Assembly: GCF_001484685.1 (NCBI RefSeq)
Contig: NZ_CP012200.1
Span: 862,321 to 926,320 of the forward strand
DNA: 64,000 nucleotides
Reading direction: 5' to 3'
Source: Thermococcus sp. 2319x1
GTDB taxonomy: Archaea > Methanobacteriota_B > Thermococci > Thermococcales > Thermococcaceae
Below the pieces are notes generated by a model. That model had not been told where the DNA came from, ran no database searches, and worked only from the letters and a program-made list of their open reading frames with translations. A program made the translations under genes and the position numbers. Shown one piece after another: positions 3,997 through 37,634 of the stretch (position 1 is its first letter; every line of letters begins with the position of its first letter).

Positions 3997-4907
3997 AGTT
4001 CAAATTCGAGAAAGACTACAAGTCAAAAACGGTTGTCAAGGTCGGAGGGGTTAAAATCGGAGACGGCTTCACCGTAATAGCGGGCCCCTGCGCGGTGGAA
4101 AGCCAGGAGCAGATAATGAAGATTGCAGAGTTTTTGGCTGAAAAAGGCGTTAAAGTGCTCCGCGGGGGAGCTTTTAAGCCGAGGACCAGCCCATACTCCT
4201 TTCAGGGACACGGGGAGGATGCCCTGAAGTGGATGAGAAAGGCGGCCGATGAATACGGCCTCGTAACCGTTACAGAGGTTATGGAAGCATCGCAGGTTGA
4301 GCTGGTTGCAAAGTACTCTGATATGCTTCAGATCGGTGCCAGGAACTCCCAGAACTTCGAACTCCTCAAGGCCGTCGGAAAGGTCGACAACCCAGTGGTT
4401 CTGAAGAGGGGAATGGCCAACACAGTCCAGGAGCTCCTATACTCGGCCGAGTACATACTCAATGGCGGCAACGAGAACGTTATTCTCTGCGAGAGGGGTA
4501 TAAGAACCTTCGAGACCTCCACGAGGTTTACCCTGGACATCTCCGCCGTTCCAGTCGTCAAGGAGCTCTCTCACTTGCCGATAATAGTCGACCCATCACA
4601 CTCAGCTGGGAGAAGGGAGCTTGTGATACCCCTTGCAAAGGCCGCCTACGCCGTTGGGGCTGACGGTATAATAGTTGAGGTTCATCCAGAGCCAGAAAAG
4701 GCCCTCTCAGATTCTGCACAACAGCTGACATTTGAAGACTTCGAGAGGCTTTTGAGGGAGATTGAAGGGCTTGGATGGAAGGTAGAGACTCCCAGAGAAG
4801 TTGCAGAGGGCGTTCCGAGGTACGTGCTCTCAGAGAGGGTCGAGGAGAACGACTGGTACACGGAGGTATTCCTCATGGAGCTGGGGGGGCTCGGATGGAG
4901 AGCCTGA
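3993..4907 (+). CDS. aroF: 3-deoxy-7-phosphoheptulonate (DAHP) synthase
   Basis: First enzyme of the shikimate pathway, joining phosphoenolpyruvate and erythrose-4-phosphate. It is of the short class I-beta (KDO8PS-like) type known from Pyrococcus furiosus. Visible motifs are AGPCAVES (about 30-37), [31 protein letters not shown] and [11 protein letters not shown], with metal ligands Cys, His, Glu and Asp in these blocks. GTG 3993 overlaps the transketolase stop. It lacks the N-terminal regulatory domain of some bacterial homologues. The C-terminus runs about 40 residues beyond the usual end near GLGWK, and the extension overlaps the start of aroB. Confidence 0.92.
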
Positions 4908-5920
4908 CTTTCGGCCCCCTCTCCACCCTTCCATCCCTCGTGGAGGAGCTGAACCCCCACAAGGTCGCATTTCTGACAAACATGACAGTGGAGAGACTCT
5001 GGCTTAAAAAAGCCTTCAGCGGAATAGAGAATCCGATAAAAATAGTCATTCCAGACGGCGAGGAATACAAGAGCCTTGAGACCACCATGGCTATTTGGAA
5101 GAGGCTCCAGGAGGAGGGCTTCACAAGGAAGTCCCTCCTTATAGGCCTCGGCGGGGGAGTCGTGACTGATATAGCTGGCTTCGTGGCCTCAACCTACATG
5201 AGAGGAACCCTTCTCGGCCTCGTTCCAACGACGCTTTTAGCCCAGGTGGACGCGGCCATAGGGGGCAAGACCGGGGTGAACTTCAACGGAAAGAACATGA
5301 TAGGGACGTTCTATCTTCCTAACTTCGTCCTGATAGCCCACGAAACTCTCTCCACGCTCCCTGATGAGGAAATCAGGAACGGGCTCGGAGAAGTTGCCAA
5401 GTACGCCCTGCTTGACAAGAAAATCTACGCCCTCATCAGGAACTTCAAGGGGATAGATGAGGCCATAATACGGGAGTGCGCACTTTTCAAGGCTGAGGTC
5501 GTTGAGAAAGACCCGGAGGAGAGAGGGCTAAGGAGAATCCTCAACCTCGGCCACACGACCGGACACGCAATCGAGAAGCTGTCGAACTACAAGATAAAGC
5601 ACGGACTTGCGGTTTCCATGGGACTTATGGTGGCTTCAAAGGTTGGAGAAGAGCTGTACGGCTTTGATTCTGGAAAAACCGAAGAGCTCCTGGAAAAGCT
5701 CGGACTACCCACGAGGCATCCCTTTGGGGCCGATGAGATACTTAGGGAGATGGCGCTTGACAAGAAGGCTTGGTATGGGAAGATCGTCTTCGTTGCTCCA
5801 GTTGAAATAGGCGATGTCGTCGTTGAGGAAGTAGCTGAGGAGGTTTTAAAACGGGCCTTGGAGGCAACGAGTTATGATAGCGGGAGTGGTGACAGCCAAA
5901 AACCCGAGGGAAGCGCTTGA
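4895..5920 (+). CDS. aroB: 3-dehydroquinate synthase
   Basis: A 341-residue NAD- and zinc-dependent enzyme making 3-dehydroquinate from DAHP. It shows the NAD loop ([23 protein letters not shown]), [29 protein letters not shown] and the zinc-ligand regions [22 protein letters not shown] and [12 protein letters not shown] 4895 lies within the aroF end and gives the normal N-terminus MESLTFG. The C-terminus overlaps aroD by 47 bases in a different frame, so its last residues ([10 protein letters not shown]) are probably an extension shaped by the aroD start. Confidence 0.92.
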
Positions 5921-24516: not shown

Positions 24517-25668
24517 TCACTCCCCAAAACACTCTTCAAAGGATTCCAAGAGGCATTCCTCCACTTTTGGAGCTTTAATGTAGCTTAAAGTCTTCAATCC
24601 GGCTCCGGTGAGAATGCCAACGACCTTCGCCCCTTTTTCAATAGCCTCTCTTTCTCTAAGTTTTCTTATTGCAGCTACTCCCGTTGCAGAAGCAGGCTGA
24701 ACAAAGAGGCCTTCTCTGCCAAGGGCTCTCTGTGCTTCCAGTATTTCCTCATCTCTAACGGTAACGCATAGACCGCTAAGTTCTTTCAAACGCCTCAACA
24801 CTGCATTCCCGCTTGGCGGGTAGGGGTTTTCTATGGCGTGGGCTATCGTGTGTGGACTCTTAAAGCGCTCTATTTTCTCTTTCCCCTCCCTGAACGCCCT
24901 GCATATAGGCGAACAGCCCTCTGCTTGAACCACCACAAAACGAGGGAGGTTCTCGATTAACCCACTCTTTTTAAGCTCTAAAAACCCCTTCACAACTCCT
25001 CTCAATAACCCTCCCGAGGAAGTAGGGACTAAAACATAATCCGGCGTTATCTCCTCAATTATCTCAAAGCTTATACTCTTGTAACCTTCTACTCTGAAGG
25101 GATCATCCGAGTTTATGAAGTATATACCCTTTTTCTGGCCTATTTCAAGGCTTTTGTAATAGAGCTCCCCGTAATCTCCGTGAACCTTAACGATTTTTGC
25201 CCCATAAACTTCTAAAGCTTTGAGTTTTTCTTCTGCTATCGTCGATGAAACGAGGATGTACGTTTCGAGGCCAGCAAAAGCTCCATAAGCGGCCACACTT
25301 GCTGCCATATTGCCCGTTGATACGGTTCCAATCTTTTTAAAGCCAAGCTGAAGAGCCCTATGGATGCCCAGATAAGTTCCCCTGTCCTTAAAGCTCCACG
25401 TGGGATTTGTGGTTTCGTTTTTGAGATAGACTTTAACTCCGATCTCCCTTGAGAGCTTTTTAGCCTTCGTCAGTGGGGTATCCCCTTCCCCAAGACTTAG
25501 CTCTGGCTTAAGGTCAAATGGGAAAAATCCAGAGAATCTCTTCCAAACTCTTCTCCCTATCCCGGGAACGCTCTCGAAAGGTTCAAGCTCTAAAGGCTCC
25601 CCGCACTCACACCTCTGGTAGGGTTTCCTCATTGAGTATTCCCTTCCACATGCGGTGCATTTAAGCAT
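24517..25668 (-). CDS. thrC: Threonine synthase
   Basis: A 383-residue PLP fold-type-II enzyme converting O-phosphohomoserine to threonine. An N-terminal zinc ribbon (CTACGREY ... CECG) precedes the catalytic domain with the PLP lysine in TWSFKDRGT, STGNMAASVAAYGA and the phosphate loop SSGGLLRG. LTGAGLKT closes the fold. The zinc ribbon is usual in archaeal ThrC. A second, shorter fold-type-II protein lies at 28687. Confidence 0.85.
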   Translation of the reverse strand: MLKCTACGREYSMRKPYQRCECGEPLELEPFESVPGIGRRVWKRFSGFFPFDLKPELSLGEGDTPLTKAKKLSREIGVKVYLKNETTNPTWSFKDRGTYLGIHRALQLGFKKIGTVSTGNMAASVAAYGAFAGLETYILVSSTIAEEKLKALEVYGAKIVKVHGDYGELYYKSLEIGQKKGIYFINSDDPFRVEGYKSISFEIIEEITPDYVLVPTSSGGLLRGVVKGFLELKKSGLIENLPRFVVVQAEGCSPICRAFREGKEKIERFKSPHTIAHAIENPYPPSGNAVLRRLKELSGLCVTVRDEEILEAQRALGREGLFVQPASATGVAAIRKLREREAIEKGAKVVGILTGAGLKTLSYIKAPKVEECLLESFEECFGE

Positions 25669-26888: not shown

Positions 26889-28202
26889 TTAGACTTTGTG
26901 GTGAGAAGAGACGTTTGCATTAAACTTCCAGACAATAAAAATGCTGAGAAGGATTAAAAGGGAAGCAAAAAGAAAGTCCACGAAAAATCCACGGGAGTTC
27001 ACTATGATGCCGCTTAAGGTACTTCCAATGATGGCACCGAGAGAACTTATCAAGTTATAAAAGCCCATCATCGCTCCCTGCTCTCTTTCTTTTGCAAGCT
27101 TGGAGATTATTGAAGTTGTTGATATGCCTATGTATGCCCAGGAATAACCGGCCAGTGCATAGGAGGCGAAGGCATAGAGTTTAAATACCATTCCAGTTTG
27201 AGATAAGCCGAGCAGAATAAGGGAAAAGCCAAAGCTCCGTATGCTCAATCCCCTAATGAGAGAGGCTTTTCCACCCATTCTCTCGGTGTGTATTCCGGCT
27301 TTCATATACATGTAGGCTGATATTGAGGAGTTTAGAACAGCAGCCAGATATATCTCGGGCGTGCTAATGTTGCGGGATTTTAACAGGACGGGGAATTGTG
27401 AAAAATACAACATTGCTCCTATCCAGAGGAGGATTGAGGCGAGATAAAACTCTTTAAACTCCAAAAATCTTGTGAAAGCCCGCTTGTTGTAGTCGGGCAG
27501 GTGAATCATAATATTTGGCAAATACCTAAACTTTTCGACAATGTAGTTTGCATAAACTCCAAGATTCTTTCTTTCAATCCTAAACGGAACCTCCTGAATC
27601 CATTTAACTCCCAAAACGATCGAAAAAATATTAACGAGGGCAAAAACCACAAGGAGCTGTCTAATATTTAAAAAATAAGCCAGAAAAAATCCTAAAATAA
27701 GCCCAACAACCCATGCCCAACCACCTATCTCGTTAAACTTCGCAATCCCATAGTTGAGTTGCTTTTTCTTTAGGACTCTTGCAATAAGTATAACCGGAAT
27801 TGGGATTGTGGCTGCGATGAAAAAAGAATACAGAAAGTTGAGGATCATTAGGTGAGTGATATCTCTTGAAAATGCCATTAGAAACGAGAATAAAGATGTT
27901 CCTATAAAACCCAGCATCAAAAATGGTTTTCTCTTAAGCGTCTTATCCGAAAGCCTCCCCCAGAATGTGCCTCCAATCATTGAGGCAATGCTTCCAATAG
28001 CGTTAATTACTCCCACTTCTTGAGGGGATCCGCTCGCTTCTAAAGTTAAGAGGGGTATCAGTGTAGAGGTGCCACCTGTTGAAATTTTGAACGGGACAAA
28101 TGCATAAAACCATTTAATCTTGGACTTCTTTGTGTAGGCAGAAAGGACTGAATTTTCAAGGGTTCTTAGAGATGCAATCTCCCTCTTCCGAGAAGCTTTC
28201 AT
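26889..28202 (-). CDS. Major facilitator superfamily transporter
   Basis: A 437-residue membrane protein with about 12 hydrophobic helices in two halves. The loop GGTFWGRLSDKTLKRKPFLMLG between helices 2 and 3 is the MFS motif A. Helix-rich segments at both ends and a basic cytoplasmic N-terminus fit the fold. The substrate cannot be read from the sequence. ATG 28202 follows AGGTG; GTG 28211 is the alternative. Confidence 0.8.
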   Translation of the reverse strand: MKASRKREIASLRTLENSVLSAYTKKSKIKWFYAFVPFKISTGGTSTLIPLLTLEASGSPQEVGVINAIGSIASMIGGTFWGRLSDKTLKRKPFLMLGFIGTSLFSFLMAFSRDITHLMILNFLYSFFIAATIPIPVILIARVLKKKQLNYGIAKFNEIGGWAWVVGLILGFFLAYFLNIRQLLVVFALVNIFSIVLGVKWIQEVPFRIERKNLGVYANYIVEKFRYLPNIMIHLPDYNKRAFTRFLEFKEFYLASILLWIGAMLYFSQFPVLLKSRNISTPEIYLAAVLNSSISAYMYMKAGIHTERMGGKASLIRGLSIRSFGFSLILLGLSQTGMVFKLYAFASYALAGYSWAYIGISTTSIISKLAKEREQGAMMGFYNLISSLGAIIGSTLSGIIVNSRGFFVDFLFASLLILLSIFIVWKFNANVSSHHKV

Positions 28203-28244
28203 TGGGGACACCTAAAAGTGGTGAAAGAAGAAAAGAGAGAAAAA

Positions 28245-28406
28245 TCACCAGTCTTCATCTTCTTCCCAGTCTTCCTCCTCCCACTCTTCTTCGTCCCAGT
28301 CTTCTTCAAAGTCTTCATCAAATTCCTCATCAAATTCTTCTTCCTCTTCCACCAGGGGCTCTTCTTCGTAGTCTTCTACCTTTTTCTTTTTCTTAGGGGG
28401 CTGCAT
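28245..28406 (-). CDS. Very acidic 53-residue protein
   Basis: A complete small gene with promoter and ribosome site (GGGAGG 8 bases ahead of ATG 28406). The product begins MQPPKKKKKVEDY, and the remaining 40 residues are nearly all Glu and Asp set with Phe and Trp at intervals (EFDEDFEED, DEEEWEEEDW). There is no hydrophobic core. It is likely an intrinsically disordered tail or nucleic-acid-mimic binding to a basic partner; that is inference. Strand, promoter and codon phase make a true gene likely. Confidence 0.7.
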   Translation of the reverse strand: MQPPKKKKKVEDYEEEPLVEEEEEFDEEFDEDFEEDWDEEEWEEEDWEEDEDW

Positions 28407-28434
28407 ATTTGATACCTCCCGCCCTCTCTAAGGG

Positions 28435-28444
28435 CGTTATATAC
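28435..28444 (-). promoter_or_regulatory. TATA box of the acidic-protein gene
   Basis: GTATATAACG on the minus strand, about 30 bases before ATG 28406, giving a leader of less than 10 bases plus the GGGAGG site. Confidence 0.55.
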
Positions 28445-28686
28445 GGAAATCATGAGTTTATAAACTTTTCGCCATGGTTTCTCGGTTCTCATCCGAGATC
28501 TAAAAATATTAGGGGTGGATAACAATGTTAACTGGATATAACAGCCATATCTGGGAGAAAGGTTTATATACCCATAACCAACCTTAGAATGTTTAATATC
28601 CAGAATACATGGATCGGATAATCGAAGATTATGATAAGGCCGATATAATCCTTTAAATCCAAAAATAGAGACATTTGGTGTAAGAA
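28445..28686. other. Intergenic region with promoter elements
   Basis: AT-rich, no gene. GTTTATATACCC near 28561-28572 and CTTTAAATCC at 28651-28660 are TATA-like on the plus strand; the second fits a short leader ahead of ATG 28687, with GGTG at 28677-28680. Confidence 0.4.
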
Positions 28687-29589
28687 ATGGAGACAGAATT
28701 GAGCTCCGACGAATCACCACTATTGAGGGCAACAAACCTAGAGAGGAAATTAGGAGTCTCAAAAATACACCTAAAGCTCGAGATAGTGAATCCAACAAAA
28801 ACGCATAAAGACAGGATTGCAAAAGCACACGTGAAGTATGCTAAAGAGCTTGGCTTTTCTGGGATCACTGTGGGAACGTGTGGCAATTATGGGACATCTA
28901 TAGCATATTTTGCAGAAAAAGAGGGATTAAAAGCCGTGATCTTTATCCCAAAGCACTATGAAAACTCAAGAGTGGAAGAAATGAAAAGGTACGGGGCAGA
29001 GGTTATACTTGTAGACGGGTCATATGAATCGGCAGTCTTTATGAGCAAAACCTTTGCAGCTACTATGAATTATTACGATGCAAACCCGGGGTCACAACCT
29101 ATGGTGGATTACGAAGCCTATTCCCTCATTTCAAAAGAAATTCTCAAAGAAGTTGAGCCATATGCAGTCTTTGTTCCGGTAGGAAACGGTTCCACCTTGG
29201 TTGGGGTTTACTATGGTTTCAAGAAGTATGGAAAGATGCCAAAAATCATTGGGGTTACAACAAGCTACGGAAATCAAATACTGAACGCGTTTTATACCGG
29301 CAGTACGGAGGAAGTTAGAGACTTCGTGGAGACTCATCTTAATGAACCCCTTGTCTCATCGATATCTTTTGATCTTCAAAAAGCATTAGAGGCTATAAAA
29401 TCATCGGGAGGTTATGTTTTTGGTTTTGCCGATGATACCGCCTTAAAATATGCCAGAATTCTGGAAACGAGTGAGGGAATAAAAGTACTTCCCGCCTCTG
29501 CTCTAACGATGGCCGGACTTGTTAAATTTGTCAAAAAATTCGGGATAACTGACGAGGACTTTGTTTTGCTTCTCACTGGAGGGGTTTGA
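28687..29589 (+). CDS. PLP fold-type-II enzyme (threonine synthase/dehydratase-like)
   Basis: A 300-residue protein with SPLLRATNLERKLG at the start, the PLP lysine in NPTKTHKDRIAK, the TCGNYGTSIAYFAEKEGL motif, VPVGNGSTLVG as phosphate loop and LLLTGGV at the end. It lacks the zinc ribbon of thrC and is shorter. The family covers lyases, synthases and racemases of amino acids, and the reaction cannot be told. It heads a compact four-gene cluster, three bases ahead of the next start. Confidence 0.75.
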   Translation: METELSSDESPLLRATNLERKLGVSKIHLKLEIVNPTKTHKDRIAKAHVKYAKELGFSGITVGTCGNYGTSIAYFAEKEGLKAVIFIPKHYENSRVEEMKRYGAEVILVDGSYESAVFMSKTFAATMNYYDANPGSQPMVDYEAYSLISKEILKEVEPYAVFVPVGNGSTLVGVYYGFKKYGKMPKIIGVTTSYGNQILNAFYTGSTEEVRDFVETHLNEPLVSSISFDLQKALEAIKSSGGYVFGFADDTALKYARILETSEGIKVLPASALTMAGLVKFVKKFGITDEDFVLLLTGGV

Positions 29590-29591
29590 AA

Positions 29592-30689
29592 ATGGAAGAA
29601 GCATTGATCCTTGCGGAGGGAAGATATAAAACAACCGACGGAAAGACCGCCCACGGGTTGGTTAGATATTCCAAGAGGTTTAAGATTGTGGGGGTAATAG
29701 ATTCCACTTTGGCCGGAAAAGATGCTGGAGAAATCTTGGATGGTATCCCAAGAGGGATCCCCATCTACGGAAGTTTCGAGGAAGCGGTTGCAGAGAACCC
29801 CGATGTCAAGTACCTCATAATTGGAGTGGCAACCCCTGGCGGATATTTGCCTCCCCTCTACAGAGAGATTATAAAAAAGGCAATAAAAAGAGGTATAAGC
29901 ATAGTTAACGGTCTCCACAACTTTCTTAGCGACGATCCCGAATTTTCTCGCTTAGCCAGAAGGTACAAGGTTCAGCTGATAGATGTAAGGAAGATATACA
30001 GAGACCTAAAAATTCCTTTCACAGGAAAAATTGAAGAAGTCAAAGCTATAAAAGTCGCTGTGCTGGGCACGGATGGGGCAATAGGTAAAAGAACCACTGC
30101 GATAATGCTTCATGAGGCATTTAAGCACTTTGGAAAGAAGAGCGTTTTTGTGGCAATGGGACAAACAGGATGGATGCAAGGGGCAAAATATTGCATAGTA
30201 ATGGATTCGATAGTAAACGACTTCGTTGCTGGAGCCATTGAAGACGTAATTTGGAGGGCTTGGAAGGAAGAAAACCCTGACGTCATAGTTACACACGGCG
30301 AAGGTTCTCTCCTCCATCCAGCTTACCCGGGAGGTTTTGAGTTAATAGCCTCCGGAAGACCTGACTACATTGTGCTCCAGCATGCTCCGGCAAGAAAATT
30401 CTTCGATGACTTCCCCCAGTATGAGATTCCACCCTTAGAAAAATACATACAGCTAATTGAACTTTTGTCTGGTAAAAAACCGATAGCTATCACAATAAAC
30501 TCTGAAAGACTCACAAAGGAAGAGGCTCTCCAAAAAGCAAGAGAAATAGAGGCAATGTATGGCATTCTAACAAGAGTTCCTCTATATGAGGGTGTCGAAG
30601 ACATAGTTAAGGTAATTCTCGAAGATGCAGGACACTTAAAAGCGGTGGTCCAGCAAGAGGTGAGTGCAAATGCTTCTCAGGTGCTTTGA
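29592..30689 (+). CDS. DUF1611 (DgcN-like) protein
   Basis: A 365-residue protein. The first part is Rossmann-like (HGLVRYSKRFKIVGVIDSTLAGKDAGE). The second has a P-loop-like VLGTDGAIGKRTTAIML and THGEGSLLHPAYPG, hallmarks of DUF1611. A bacterial member, DgcN, acetylates the amino group of D-glutamate. ATG 29592 follows GGAGGGG at good spacing. By context it may acylate or otherwise activate an amino acid made by its neighbours; that is inference. Confidence 0.72.
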   Translation: MEEALILAEGRYKTTDGKTAHGLVRYSKRFKIVGVIDSTLAGKDAGEILDGIPRGIPIYGSFEEAVAENPDVKYLIIGVATPGGYLPPLYREIIKKAIKRGISIVNGLHNFLSDDPEFSRLARRYKVQLIDVRKIYRDLKIPFTGKIEEVKAIKVAVLGTDGAIGKRTTAIMLHEAFKHFGKKSVFVAMGQTGWMQGAKYCIVMDSIVNDFVAGAIEDVIWRAWKEENPDVIVTHGEGSLLHPAYPGGFELIASGRPDYIVLQHAPARKFFDDFPQYEIPPLEKYIQLIELLSGKKPIAITINSERLTKEEALQKAREIEAMYGILTRVPLYEGVEDIVKVILEDAGHLKAVVQQEVSANASQVL

Positions 30690-32103
30690 TTACATAACCA
30701 TTGGAAAACCAAAGGTATCTTCCCGGAGAATTTCTGCCGTTTATACCCTTTCCATCGATGGAAACGAGGAAAAATTCAAGCTGATCCACACCTACAAAGA
30801 AAACATTCCAAAAAATGAGGTCTTCGCAAAGCTTATGGTCATAACTCCAGCGATAAACTACGCCCTCTTCACCCCAGAAATTTCCTTTAACTTCTCCCTC
30901 GATCCAAGAGACCTGCAGTTCTTTAAAGAGATGATGGAGCTTACTGCTAACGATATCCTCGTGAACAGGATATACAAGAGGACGGGATTTGTTAGAGAGG
31001 AATTCATCCCCAAAGAGATAAAACCCCAGCCACTGGCAAGGGTTGTTCCCGAAAGAATTGAAGAGGAAGAAATTGAACTCACTCCGGACTACAACAGATG
31101 TGGGGTAATGCTCAGCGGCGGAAAGGAAAGCCTTCTCACTTATGGACTCATGAAGGAGATTGGCTGTGAAGTATATCCCTTCTTTTTTAATGAATCAGGT
31201 GGCCACTGGAAGGTCGCTTTAACTGCGTATAATTGGTTTAAAGAACACGAACCAAATACCAAAAAAGTGTGGAGCAACGTGGACAGGCTTTACACGTTTA
31301 TAGAGAAGCATATGAAGATACTCCAAAACGTAGGGAAACCAAGAACAGAGGTGTATCCCATAAGGCTGTTCTTCTTTGAGCATTACGTTTTCTCCTTCCT
31401 GCCACTAATTGAAAAATACGGCATAGGGAACGTTTTACTCGGCAACGAATACGACGATCCAAGGGGTCTCACCTACGAGTTCCATGGGATACCTCACTTT
31501 TATGCCGTCCTCGACCAGAGTCAATTCTTTGACAAATACATGAGCTCATGGTTCGCCGAAAGAGGCTTAAATATAAGACAGTGGTCCGCTGTAAGGCCGA
31601 TAACGGGACTCATCGTTGAGAGAATCCTCTACAACCGTTATCCGGAGCTCTTTAAACTCCAGAGAAGCTGCCATTCAGTCCACAGAGAGGGTGAAGACTA
31701 CGTACCATGTGGAGAATGCTTCAAGTGCAACGGGATCTTAACTTTTCTCCTCGCAAACGGCATAGATCCTCAGATCATCAAGTACAAACCCGAGCACATA
31801 GAAACGCTCCCCAAGAGGATTGCCGAAGGAAAGATAAGACTTGACGAAGATGAGCTCCAGCACTCCCTCTATCTGATAAAGCAGAGAGACCCCAGCTTCC
31901 AACTGGAAGGAAAAAGAAGGGACCACGTGGAGATGCTCCACTTCGATGATAAAAACTCTCACTTCGACAACATTCCCCCGGAGTTCAGAGAGAGGATATA
32001 CTCAATATTCGAGCAGTATACGAAAGGCTATGCCTACCTAAAGGGAAATGAATGGGTTGAAATAACAAGGGAGGAAGCACTCCATGGAGTACAAAATAGT
32101 TGA
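30670..32103 (+). CDS. MurL-like PP-loop ATP-utilising enzyme
   Basis: A 477-residue protein. The N-terminal 150 residues are a separate unrecognised domain. Then comes a PP-loop (CGVMLSGGKESLLTYGLM, near 145), the ATP-pyrophosphatase signature, and further on a cysteine cluster CGECFKCNG that may bind zinc. The arrangement recalls MurL, which epimerises a terminal L-glutamate using ATP in an unusual peptidoglycan route; asparagine-synthase-like or tRNA-modifying PP-loop proteins are alternatives. ATG 30670 follows GAGGTGAG and overlaps DUF1611. Thermococcales have no peptidoglycan, so its substrate must differ. Confidence 0.6.
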   Translation: MLLRCFDYITIGKPKVSSRRISAVYTLSIDGNEEKFKLIHTYKENIPKNEVFAKLMVITPAINYALFTPEISFNFSLDPRDLQFFKEMMELTANDILVNRIYKRTGFVREEFIPKEIKPQPLARVVPERIEEEEIELTPDYNRCGVMLSGGKESLLTYGLMKEIGCEVYPFFFNESGGHWKVALTAYNWFKEHEPNTKKVWSNVDRLYTFIEKHMKILQNVGKPRTEVYPIRLFFFEHYVFSFLPLIEKYGIGNVLLGNEYDDPRGLTYEFHGIPHFYAVLDQSQFFDKYMSSWFAERGLNIRQWSAVRPITGLIVERILYNRYPELFKLQRSCHSVHREGEDYVPCGECFKCNGILTFLLANGIDPQIIKYKPEHIETLPKRIAEGKIRLDEDELQHSLYLIKQRDPSFQLEGKRRDHVEMLHFDDKNSHFDNIPPEFRERIYSIFEQYTKGYAYLKGNEWVEITREEALHGVQNS

Positions 32104-32554
32104 TGGGGAAAGCTACTTAGAAGAGATCAAAAAGCTTGACAGGGAAATAAGTTATTCATTCGTTCACTTTTCTATTCCCTATGAGGAATTTGCGAAGAGG
32201 CACGAAGAGCTCTTTAAAGACCTTCTCTCTCACGGAGAGCACAAATTCTTCGCCGCCATAGATGAAAATGGAAAGCTCCTGGGCCACGTCTGGGTTTGTT
32301 TAACCCTTGACACGGTGGATTACGTCAAAATAGCTTATATCTATGACATTGAAGTTGTTAAAAAGGCAAGAGGTCTTGGAATTGGTTCGGCTCTTTTAAG
32401 AAAAGCTGAAGCATGGGCAAGAGAGAAGGGAGCAAAGAAAGTTGTACTTAGGGTAGAAGTTGATAACCCTGCGGTAAAATGGTACGAAGAACGAGGATAC
32501 CAAGCAAGAGCACTTATAATGGAAAAATTGTTAGACGACGATTTCATCATATAG
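32084..32554 (+). CDS. GNAT-family N-acetyltransferase
   Basis: A 156-residue GNAT enzyme. FFAAIDENGKLLGHVWV, AYIYDIEVVKKARGLGIGSALL (the acetyl-CoA loop) and VEVDNPAVKWYEERGYQ are the family motifs. The acceptor is unknown. It overlaps the MurL-like gene by 20 bases, so it is the last member of the four-gene cluster. Confidence 0.82.
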   Translation: MEYKIVDGESYLEEIKKLDREISYSFVHFSIPYEEFAKRHEELFKDLLSHGEHKFFAAIDENGKLLGHVWVCLTLDTVDYVKIAYIYDIEVVKKARGLGIGSALLRKAEAWAREKGAKKVVLRVEVDNPAVKWYEERGYQARALIMEKLLDDDFII

Positions 32555-33819: not shown

Positions 33820-33887
33820 TTTTCTTCCTTCTCTTTACACTGCCACCAGGAATATGTTGAAAGGGCGTAATGCTATGAGAGGGTAAA

Positions 33888-34388
33888 ATTATTTAGATAA
33901 TCTCAAAAAGCGAGGCTTTGATAATGAACTAATGGAAGTTTATGACCTTCAGATCACACAATGCAACCACCACAACTATGAGTGTTTCTCTGGAAAGTAT
34001 CTCATCGAAGATGACGTTCCCTGTTCTACGAAAAGGCCATGAAAGCTGATGTCTTGATCTTTGCCGTGCCCACTTATGGAGGGCATGCTTCAGCTCTTTA
34101 CATAGCTTTCTGCGAGAGAGGACAGGCGGTTTTTAAGATTATGAAGAATGGAACGACTTTGCAAAGAAGCTAAACTTCATCGTCGTGGGAAACTTGCCTT
34201 CGGGTGGAGACATGGCGCTTCATGAGGTTCTCCATGGGATTGCCACATCGAACTACTGCCCCAAAGCAATCCTGATATCTTCAAGTGAATACCTGAGAAG
34301 CTCAATTAAGGGAGGTTTAATCAAGAAAGATGAAATCAAAGCTCGGATAAATAGATTTGCAGGAAGGATAATCCAAAAGATGGGGTGA
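33888..34388 (+). pseudogene. Broken flavodoxin-fold NAD(P)H:FMN reductase-like gene
   Basis: Three frames must be joined to read the protein: LDNLKKRGFDNELMEVYDLQ with CNHHNYEC, then FYEKAMKADVLIFAVPTYGGHASALYIAF, then DYEEWNDFAKKLNFIVVGNLPSGGDMALHEV to IIQKMG and stop. The middle block is the usual flavodoxin-like ADV(I/L)(I/F)..PTY.G motif. The N-terminal FMN-binding loop is missing. It is not functional. Confidence 0.7.
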
Positions 34389-34394
34389 AAAGAA

Positions 34395-35019
34395 GTGTTT
34401 AAAGACCTCGGCTATACTGATTCACCCTTTTACGAAAAGACCCAAGATGAACAGGATATAGAAAGCGGGAGAGGTAAAGAAAGATTTTCAGAGTTAAGAG
34501 AGATTCTTTCAAGACACTTACCCATTAAGAGCGGCAGGGCTTTGGACATTGGCTGCAACACTGGGCTAAGCAGTTTTGTTTTAGAAGAGTTGGGTTTCAA
34601 CGTTGTGGGCATAGACATTCAAGAAAAGGCCGTAGAGCGGGCTAAAGAGTTAGCCAAAAAGCGAGGTTCAAAGGCAAAATTTTATGTTATGAACGCTAAA
34701 AATCTGGTTTCAAAGAAAACACCTTTGACCTCGTTGCTCTGCTCGGTTATCCACTGACACATTTTAGCATCTGGGATTTTGATAAGATTTTGCAGGAAGT
34801 TAGACGAGTTCTGAAGCCTCAAGGCTGGATTGCGATTCAAGAAAACGACTTCCTCTGGACGCTTATAAGGGGTTCAACCAGTCGGGACTTGAGGCTGAGG
34901 GCTTGATTAGAATAAACATAGATGTAAACGTTTACGAGGGATATCTTGAGAGACTGCTCATTGATTTTGAAAAAGGTGTATCCTCAAGGGATAAGTTCCA
35001 CATAAGGATAAGGACTTGA
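34395..35019 (+). pseudogene. Broken class I SAM methyltransferase
   Basis: GTG 34395 opens a frame with the SAM-binding ALDIGCNTGLSSFVLEELGF and VVGIDIQEKAVERAKELA. Near 34715 the frame shifts; ENTFDLVALLGYPLTHFSIWDF and LQEVRRVLKPQGWIAIQEND follow, and a second shift near 34875 leads to GFNQSGLEAEGLIRINIDVNVY and the stop at 35017. Two frameshifts in an otherwise recognisable Methyltransferase_11-like protein. Confidence 0.75.
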
Positions 35020-36930: not shown

Positions 36931-37634
36931 ATGGATACTGTTAAGATAAGGCTTCTAGTATTTACCCATCAGCTCATCCTAACAGTATCGAATAAAGTTC
37001 CAGAAGAAAGAAAAATCAGAGCAGTAGAATTATACCTGAAAGGCCTCAGCTATCGCCAAATCACAGAAATACTGGAAATCAGCCACACGACAGTCTGGGA
37101 AACAGTTCAAAAACTAGCAGAAGCAGTTTACCAGCCAAAACTCCTCGCAGTGAGGAAACAAAGGAATTTTATCGCAGTTGACAAGACTGTAATAAAAATC
37201 AACGGGGAAAAAGATACCTCTGGGCCGCAATTGACGTTGAAAGCAGAGAAATCCTCGCAGTCCGGACTACAACAACCAGAAATTGGTGGATTGCCAGGGA
37301 TTTTATTCTGGTTGTTTTAAAGTCCTGCGAAAATCAGCCTGTTTTTCTGGTTGATGGAGCGGAGTGGTATAAGTCTGCTTTTAATTCCCTTGGGCTGGAT
37401 TTTGTTCATGTAACTTTCGGGCCGAGGAACAGTATTAAACGCTGATTCAGGACTGTTAAAGAACGGACAGAGCGTTTCTGGAACAATTTCAGGAGTAAGG
37501 ACTGGTGTAGGGTTCAAAAGTTTGTTTTTCTGTTTGCTTTCTGGTATAATTTTGTTAGAGTTCATTCTCGGTTTGGTTCCCCGCCTAGTGATGTGACTGA
37601 ATGGCTTCATAAGGTGATGCCAAAGTTATCCTAA
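36931..37634 (+). pseudogene. Broken IS6-family DDE transposase
   Basis: A frame from 36931 gives an HTH (AVELYLKGLSYRQITEILEISHTTVWETVQKL) and the first catalytic Asp region (NFIAVDKTVIKINGE). A frameshift near 37210 leads to YLWAAIDVESREILAV and the second Asp (VFLVDGAEWYKSAF). A TGA at about 37442 interrupts just before the Glu helix (FRTVKERTERFWNNF), and the frame runs on to HKVMPKLS and stop. At least two disabling changes. The first residues read across the terminal repeat, so the original start was probably further in. Confidence 0.8.

Follow-up and report, generated by a model that had tools for sequence, protein, structure and literature searches.

Gene content and conservation of the cluster

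Within a 64,000-nucleotide stretch of the Thermococcus sp. 2319x1 genome (NZ_CP012200.1, positions 862,321 to 926,320; hereafter the window), four contiguous open reading frames (ORFs) lie head to tail on the plus strand at 28687-32554 and encode a pyridoxal phosphate (PLP) enzyme, a DUF1611 protein, a PP-loop protein and a GNAT acyltransferase (Table 1). Measured from their first possible starts, successive ORFs share 4, 26 and 20 bases; from the conserved starts in relatives, the DUF1611 and PP-loop proteins likely begin at ATG 29592 and ATG 30670, respectively. A first-pass annotation of the sequence had proposed these genes as a cluster; the cluster is real, and Pfam assigns the products of genes 1, 2 and 4 to PALP, DUF1611_N/DUF1611_C and GNAT. 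Its extent had been drawn too small, as in Thermococcales an MFS transporter gene and a gene for a small acidic protein also belong to the unit. Comparison of genomes showed that the DUF1611, PP-loop and PLP genes form one conserved, co-occurring unit to which the GNAT gene is an accessory. No Rfam RNAs were found in the region.

Table 1. Features of the gene unit and its upstream region (window coordinates)
Feature	Position	Strand	Evidence
PLP fold-type II enzyme, threonine-synthase-like, distinct subfamily with invariant TCGN	28687..29589	+	PALP 2e-56
DUF1611 (DgcN-like) protein	29586..30689	+	DUF1611_N 4e-32, DUF1611_C 4e-68 (Pfam)
PP-loop protein, unnamed family, distant MurL relative, predicted QueC/QatC-like fold	30664..32103	+	
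GNAT acyltransferase	32084..32554	+	Acetyltransf_1 5e-19
MFS transporter gene, divergent from enzyme operon	26889..28211	-	MFS_1 2e-33
53-aa very acidic, Trp-rich small protein	28245..28406	-	20 Thermococcales loci
GCCC-N-GGGC inverted repeat	28421..28435		Read in upstream sequences of relatives' loci
TATA-like element GTTTATAAAC, small-protein/MFS side	28452..28473	-	Consensus only
TATA-like element AAAGGTTTATATACC, enzyme operon	28554..28575	+	Consensus only

Among 115 genomes of the window's phylum, the PP-loop profile matched 28 and DUF1611 matched 26, and the two genes adjoin in 24/24 Thermococcaceae genomes with DUF1611 (G and L numbers are our handles for genomes and loci). PP-loop matches lacking DUF1611 corresponded to remnants (G032, G061), a contig end (G098) and, in G081, a different, short PP-loop protein that was rejected as a family member, while DUF1611 matches lacking the PP-loop protein came from two genomes of another family (G037 and G045). 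The unit occupies unrelated genomic sites in G031, G012 and G030, and it has decayed repeatedly: the PLP gene of G031 is internally deleted, the PP-loop gene of G075 is broken, and all genes of the unit are fragmented in G077.

The neighborhood proposed from this one genome recurs elsewhere, and the genes stay together across three archaeal phyla. In a scan of the sequence collection, the PLP, DUF1611 and PP-loop genes turned up in unchanged order at two loci of Thermoplasmatota (35-37% identity), and a profile search matched 68 of 390 Thermoplasmatota genomes. Forty of these neighborhoods were sampled, 37 of which held a true member; DUF1611 adjoined the PP-loop gene in all 37 and the PLP gene was also present in 32, mostly with overlapping genes or short gaps. 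A third phylum gave matches in 20 of 300 genomes, 16 of them with near full-length members, and the three core genes lie together in 13 of these 16 loci. The exceptions (L165, L170 and L171) pair the PP-loop gene with a GNAT gene and carry DUF1611 elsewhere in the genome, behind the PLP gene in the two genomes checked for this split operon (G922 and G960). Because the same order is found at unrelated Thermococcales sites and in two further archaeal phyla, the arrangement is not due to chance. A GNAT gene directly 3' of the PP-loop gene was seen at all Thermococcales loci with sequence cover and, in the third phylum, at L160, L165, L170 and L171. No match was found in two other archaeal phyla (those of G058 and G059; 23 and 152 genomes), and viral contigs held no relative.

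In the split third-phylum operon, the PP-loop and GNAT pair is divergent from a beta-aspartyl-peptidase/asparaginase gene (L165:9624-10565 and L170:9877-10812; Asparaginase_2 6e-89 for the L165 neighbor), a hint toward acidic amino acids or isopeptides.

The Thermococcales proteins form one clade nested among third-phylum lineages, which suggests transfer, on a tree without branch test. Gene-tree distances of the three core genes correlate with one another at 0.68-0.81 across 62 loci; these values do not discriminate, since the D-aminoacyl-tRNA deacylase (DTD2) correlates as well. The DTD2 gene itself adjoins the unit in 21 of the 40 Thermoplasmatota neighborhoods and lies directly upstream of it in L053 (4927-5682) and L054 (5030-5821).

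Families of the core proteins

The DUF1611 protein was compared with solved structures, among which 2g0t, 2obn and 7xrj were closest. The family profile aligned to 7xrj with an E value of 6e-51 over 283 positions, and the blocks GTDxxxGK, GQTG, DFxAGxIE, EGQGS..H and HxPxR are common to both. We take 7xrj, titled as a putative epimerase/dehydratase, to be DgcN. The likeness to DgcN lies in these blocks and in the paired DUF1611_N and DUF1611_C domains; unlike in the DgcN-DgcA route, the PP-loop protein stands where a DgcA-type epimerase would. No enolase-superfamily epimerase of DgcA type lies beside DUF1611, the rest of the genome not having been searched. In bacteria, dgcN is described as the key gene of the irreversible racemization of acidic D-amino acids (PMC12363236), and the DgcN-DgcA route is catabolic (PMC12363236, PMC10845958). 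In a full-text literature search, the two papers that named DUF1611 dealt with other topics.

Neither Pfam nor NCBIfam assigns the PP-loop protein to a family, and searches of PDB, Pfam and plasmids with it gave nothing useful. The window protein carries SGGKES and SCH..PCGECFKC motifs, the latter conserved as SCH..PCGxCxKC in 42/42 family members; NESGxHW, likewise present in all 42, is a candidate active-site signature. A structure model built from the 42-sequence alignment reached a predicted local distance difference test score (pLDDT) of 93.8 and a predicted template modeling score of 0.93, where an input of eight near-identical sequences had given a pLDDT of only 47.8. With this model, the closest solved folds in Foldseek were QatC (5e-6), QueC (9.6e-5 for 2pg3, and 1e-3) and Cap9 (2.5e-3); the confidently modeled fold is thus a PP-loop fold of QueC type.

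The fold, the SGGxDS-type loop, the Cys4 zinc-type motif and an N-terminal extension as in QatC are shared with QueC, Cap9 and QatC, and could be taken to mean that the protein is a deazaguanine enzyme of QueC type, acting on a tRNA or DNA base or in protein deazaguanylation. QueC is defined by the substrate motifs YxQxHxxE, VPxRN and YPDC (PMC13329287), each of which is found in 0/42 members; PF06508 had no match in the protein at E values up to 10, and the PF06508 matches in the genome exclude the cluster locus, the genome's own QueC scoring 205 bits elsewhere. Neither queD nor queE is among the neighbors of the cluster. By sequence, the protein therefore falls outside the queuosine/QueC family, so that this objection foreseen in the first-pass annotation does not apply, even though its closest solved folds are QueC-type, and a deazaguanine function was rejected as very improbable. 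A QatC-like role in defense was rejected as well: the PADLOC model gave no match, C(x)19CGxCxxRR occurs in 0/42 members, and no defense or deazaguanine genes lie nearby.

By sequence, MurL is the closest characterized relative, at the level of remote homology, which is no proof of function. The link rests on NCBIfam profile NF041275 (equivalog cut-off, 700 bits), which matches 8 of the 42 members, with a best E value of 3.8e-4, and does not match the window protein itself. A bridging archaeal protein, L172, matches this model at 1.4e-9; comparison of the profile of its group with that of the PP-loop family gave a probability of 99.7% (E of 3e-26), and the family model finds the genome of L172 at 3e-17. 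The likeness extends over the PP-loop and the Cys-rich part, and the label MurL-like, first assigned by eye, was right in this remote sense. MurL requires ATP and Mg, yields AMP and acts on an N-acylated Glu, with an adenylate intermediate proposed by its authors (PMC8788868, PMC5808125); it acts on a peptide-end Glu, and converts L-Glu into D-Glu in one direction only (PMC5808125). Carboxylate activation on an N-acylated amino acid, with conversion of ATP to AMP, is likely a common trait. The archaeal PP-loop group closer to MurL lies outside the DUF1611 context (L172:836-2197, L173:6707-8068, L121 and L122).

The PLP enzyme resembles threonine synthase in its fold type II, its PLP lysine within a KDR motif and a score of 423.6 bits against NCBIfam PRK06381 (cut-off, 266). 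It differs in an invariant TCGN (22/22 relatives) where the threonine synthases in PDB have STGN, and in its score against TIGR00260 (96.8 bits, below the cut-off of 167.1). The NSxNPxR and GNAGN residues of ThrC bind the substrate phosphate. None of the ThrC motifs STGN, NSxNPxR and GNAGN is found in any of the 22 relatives, and the name threonine synthase is doubtful because TCGN replaces STGN and the other two motifs are missing. A genuine threonine synthase was thus rejected; another threonine-synthase-like PLP protein, encoded 3 kb away at 24517-25668 on the minus strand, meets TIGR00260 instead (189 bits). Most PLP proteins of the unit, in all three phyla, carry acidic or Ser-rich N-terminal tails (EDDSSS, SSDDDGG, EEEKPPG).

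A possible route to an acylated or D-configured amino acid

The unit probably makes or handles a mirror-image or acyl amino-acid compound, in archaea that have no peptidoglycan wall. The DgcN-like and MurL-like proteins, side by side in three phyla, suggest acylation followed by adenylation and inversion. By analogy, our preferred but tentative reading of the core is an archaeal pathway for a free amino acid, in which the DUF1611 protein would N-acylate the amino acid, as DgcN does D-glutamate, and the PP-loop enzyme would use ATP to adenylate the carboxylate of the N-acyl amino acid and then invert C-alpha by the logic of MurL, thereby taking over from DgcA, the enolase-type epimerase of the bacterial DgcN-DgcA route. 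The PLP enzyme would make or consume the amino acid, and the GNAT would modify the product. Synthesis, from L to D, is favored over salvage because ATP makes the step one-way. The fuller proposal, that in peptidoglycan-free archaea the DgcN-like protein and the new PP-loop family make up a dedicated pathway, driven by ATP, that leads to an acylated or D-configured amino-acid compound, with export in Thermococcales aided by the acidic small protein, is held slightly less firmly, at a probability of about 0.35. A theme of D-amino acids or peptide ends, as first proposed, fits the enzyme families and the DTD2 neighbor in Thermoplasmatota.

Several observations weigh against this pathway. For the DUF1611 protein, DgcN-like had been claimed and is upheld at the superfamily level by the domains and shared blocks, but the NCBIfam DgcN equivalog is far off (163.9 bits, with a cut-off of 480). 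The PP-loop members likewise miss the MurL equivalog cut-off by a wide margin; unlike MurL, they have no adjoining Mur ligase, none of MurD type or otherwise being found among the flanking ORFs and families of the examined loci, and their hosts lack peptidoglycan. Ten members match PRK13795, another PP-loop model (best E value, 1.6e-4), so that the MurL signal is partly generic to PP-loops. The closest solved folds make amides or nitriles rather than carrying out epimerization, and no residue can be pointed to as the base for inversion at C-alpha. Inherited synteny of housekeeping genes may explain the adjacency of DTD2.

The nature of these folds bears on an alternative in which the PP-loop enzyme adenylates the carboxylate of an amino acid, N-acylated or unusual, and couples it with an amine, giving an amide, peptide or ring, with a peptide-like product exported by the MFS transporter. 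QueC, Cap9 and probably QatC activate a carboxylate and pass it to an amine (PMC13279940), and the best Foldseek matches are of that kind. The unit is patchily distributed, lies at new genomic sites and has decayed repeatedly (G031, G075, G077, G032 and G061), which resembles secondary metabolism, and a GNAT and an MFS transporter would suit a natural product. The closest sequence relative, MurL, is no ligase, however, the QueC and QatC signatures are absent, and, in Thermoplasmatota, the unit's broad occurrence next to housekeeping genes is less like a secondary metabolite. We consider this alternative unlikely, if the strongest of those weighed here. Both the epimerase and the ligase reading include carboxylate adenylation, the safest of the inferred steps; C-alpha inversion by the PP-loop enzyme is less certain.

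The catabolic nature of the DgcN-DgcA route (PMC12363236, PMC10845958) and the DTD2 neighbor in Thermoplasmatota would agree with the opposite direction, salvage, in which D forms from the environment or from damage are acylated and inverted to L, the MFS transporter being an importer and DTD2 clearing misacylated tRNA. We find this doubtful: MurL runs from L to D only (PMC5808125), and the expense of ATP and acyl-CoA would weigh on peptide fermenters, which are limited in energy and possess reversible PLP racemases, as in Pyrococcus horikoshii (PMC6047364).

The combination of DUF1611 and PP-loop proteins appears to be undescribed, its enzyme families being known, and a 2026 review of the QueC scaffold makes no mention of MurL. 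If the proposed synthesis of a D-configured or acylated amino acid is true, MurL-type ATP-driven stereo-inversion would extend beyond bacterial walls to a free-standing acyl amino-acid route in archaea; both the small molecule and the enzyme reaction would be new. An unassigned PP-loop family and the DUF1611 proteins of three archaeal phyla would gain a function and a substrate class open to testing, and a role for D-amino acids in archaea would become testable in genetically tractable Thermococcus. Attention is also drawn to a PLP subfamily that probably carries the name threonine synthase wrongly.

Transporter, acidic small protein and flanking sequences

The MFS gene stands beside the unit at most Thermococcales loci, though the remaining flanks differ, and is absent in G012 and G086. 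In Thermococcales, the transporter would carry the product across the membrane, the compound being exported, with the acidic small protein as an accessory. The gene for the latter lies between the MFS and PLP genes, on the MFS strand. The protein, MQPPKKKKKVEDYEEEP...EEEDWEEDEDW, is 60% acidic and resembles nothing in Pfam; in the whole set, it was found outside the 20 Thermococcales loci once at equal threshold, as a weak candidate (L162). Compared with L011, its gene shows 16 synonymous and 2 conservative D/E changes, and differences of 1/0/17 by codon position, a pattern from which the small ORF is taken to be a translated gene under selection; the substitutions indicate strong purifying selection on the protein.

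The small-protein gene is preceded by a GGGAGG ribosome-binding site, with a TATA-like box farther upstream. Between the two, within 28410-28470 and just before the ribosome-binding site, sits the GCCC..GGGC inverted repeat, which is conserved in relatives and is possibly an operator or an RNA hairpin.

The small protein is a candidate MFS accessory, carrier or substrate. It is truncated in G012, where this MFS is absent, and kept in G086, which also lacks this MFS; the latter weakens a tie to the transporter alone. Its retention in G086, its conservation under purifying selection at all readable Thermococcales loci and the action of MurL on a peptide-end Glu might suggest that the protein itself is the substrate or carrier, as a precursor of a ribosomally synthesized and post-translationally modified peptide or a LysW-like amino-group carrier, whose Asp or Glu residues the PP-loop enzyme modifies. 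The protein cannot be a general substrate, as it is not found in the other two phyla save for the weak candidate L162; moreover, it has no conserved C-terminal residue, and in G012, where all four enzyme genes are intact, it is truncated. We therefore give this explanation little credence.

Downstream of the unit, 33880-34760 is degenerate. It contains a truncated methyltransferase and what is left of a flavoprotein-type reductase, which L016 carries intact (4467-5036), and it adjoins a DUF257 gene; in L011-L014, an additional 224-aa ORF lies next to the DUF257 gene. A short ORF at 36931-37320 resembles, by eye, a broken transposase, with a helix-turn-helix and the start of a DDE domain.

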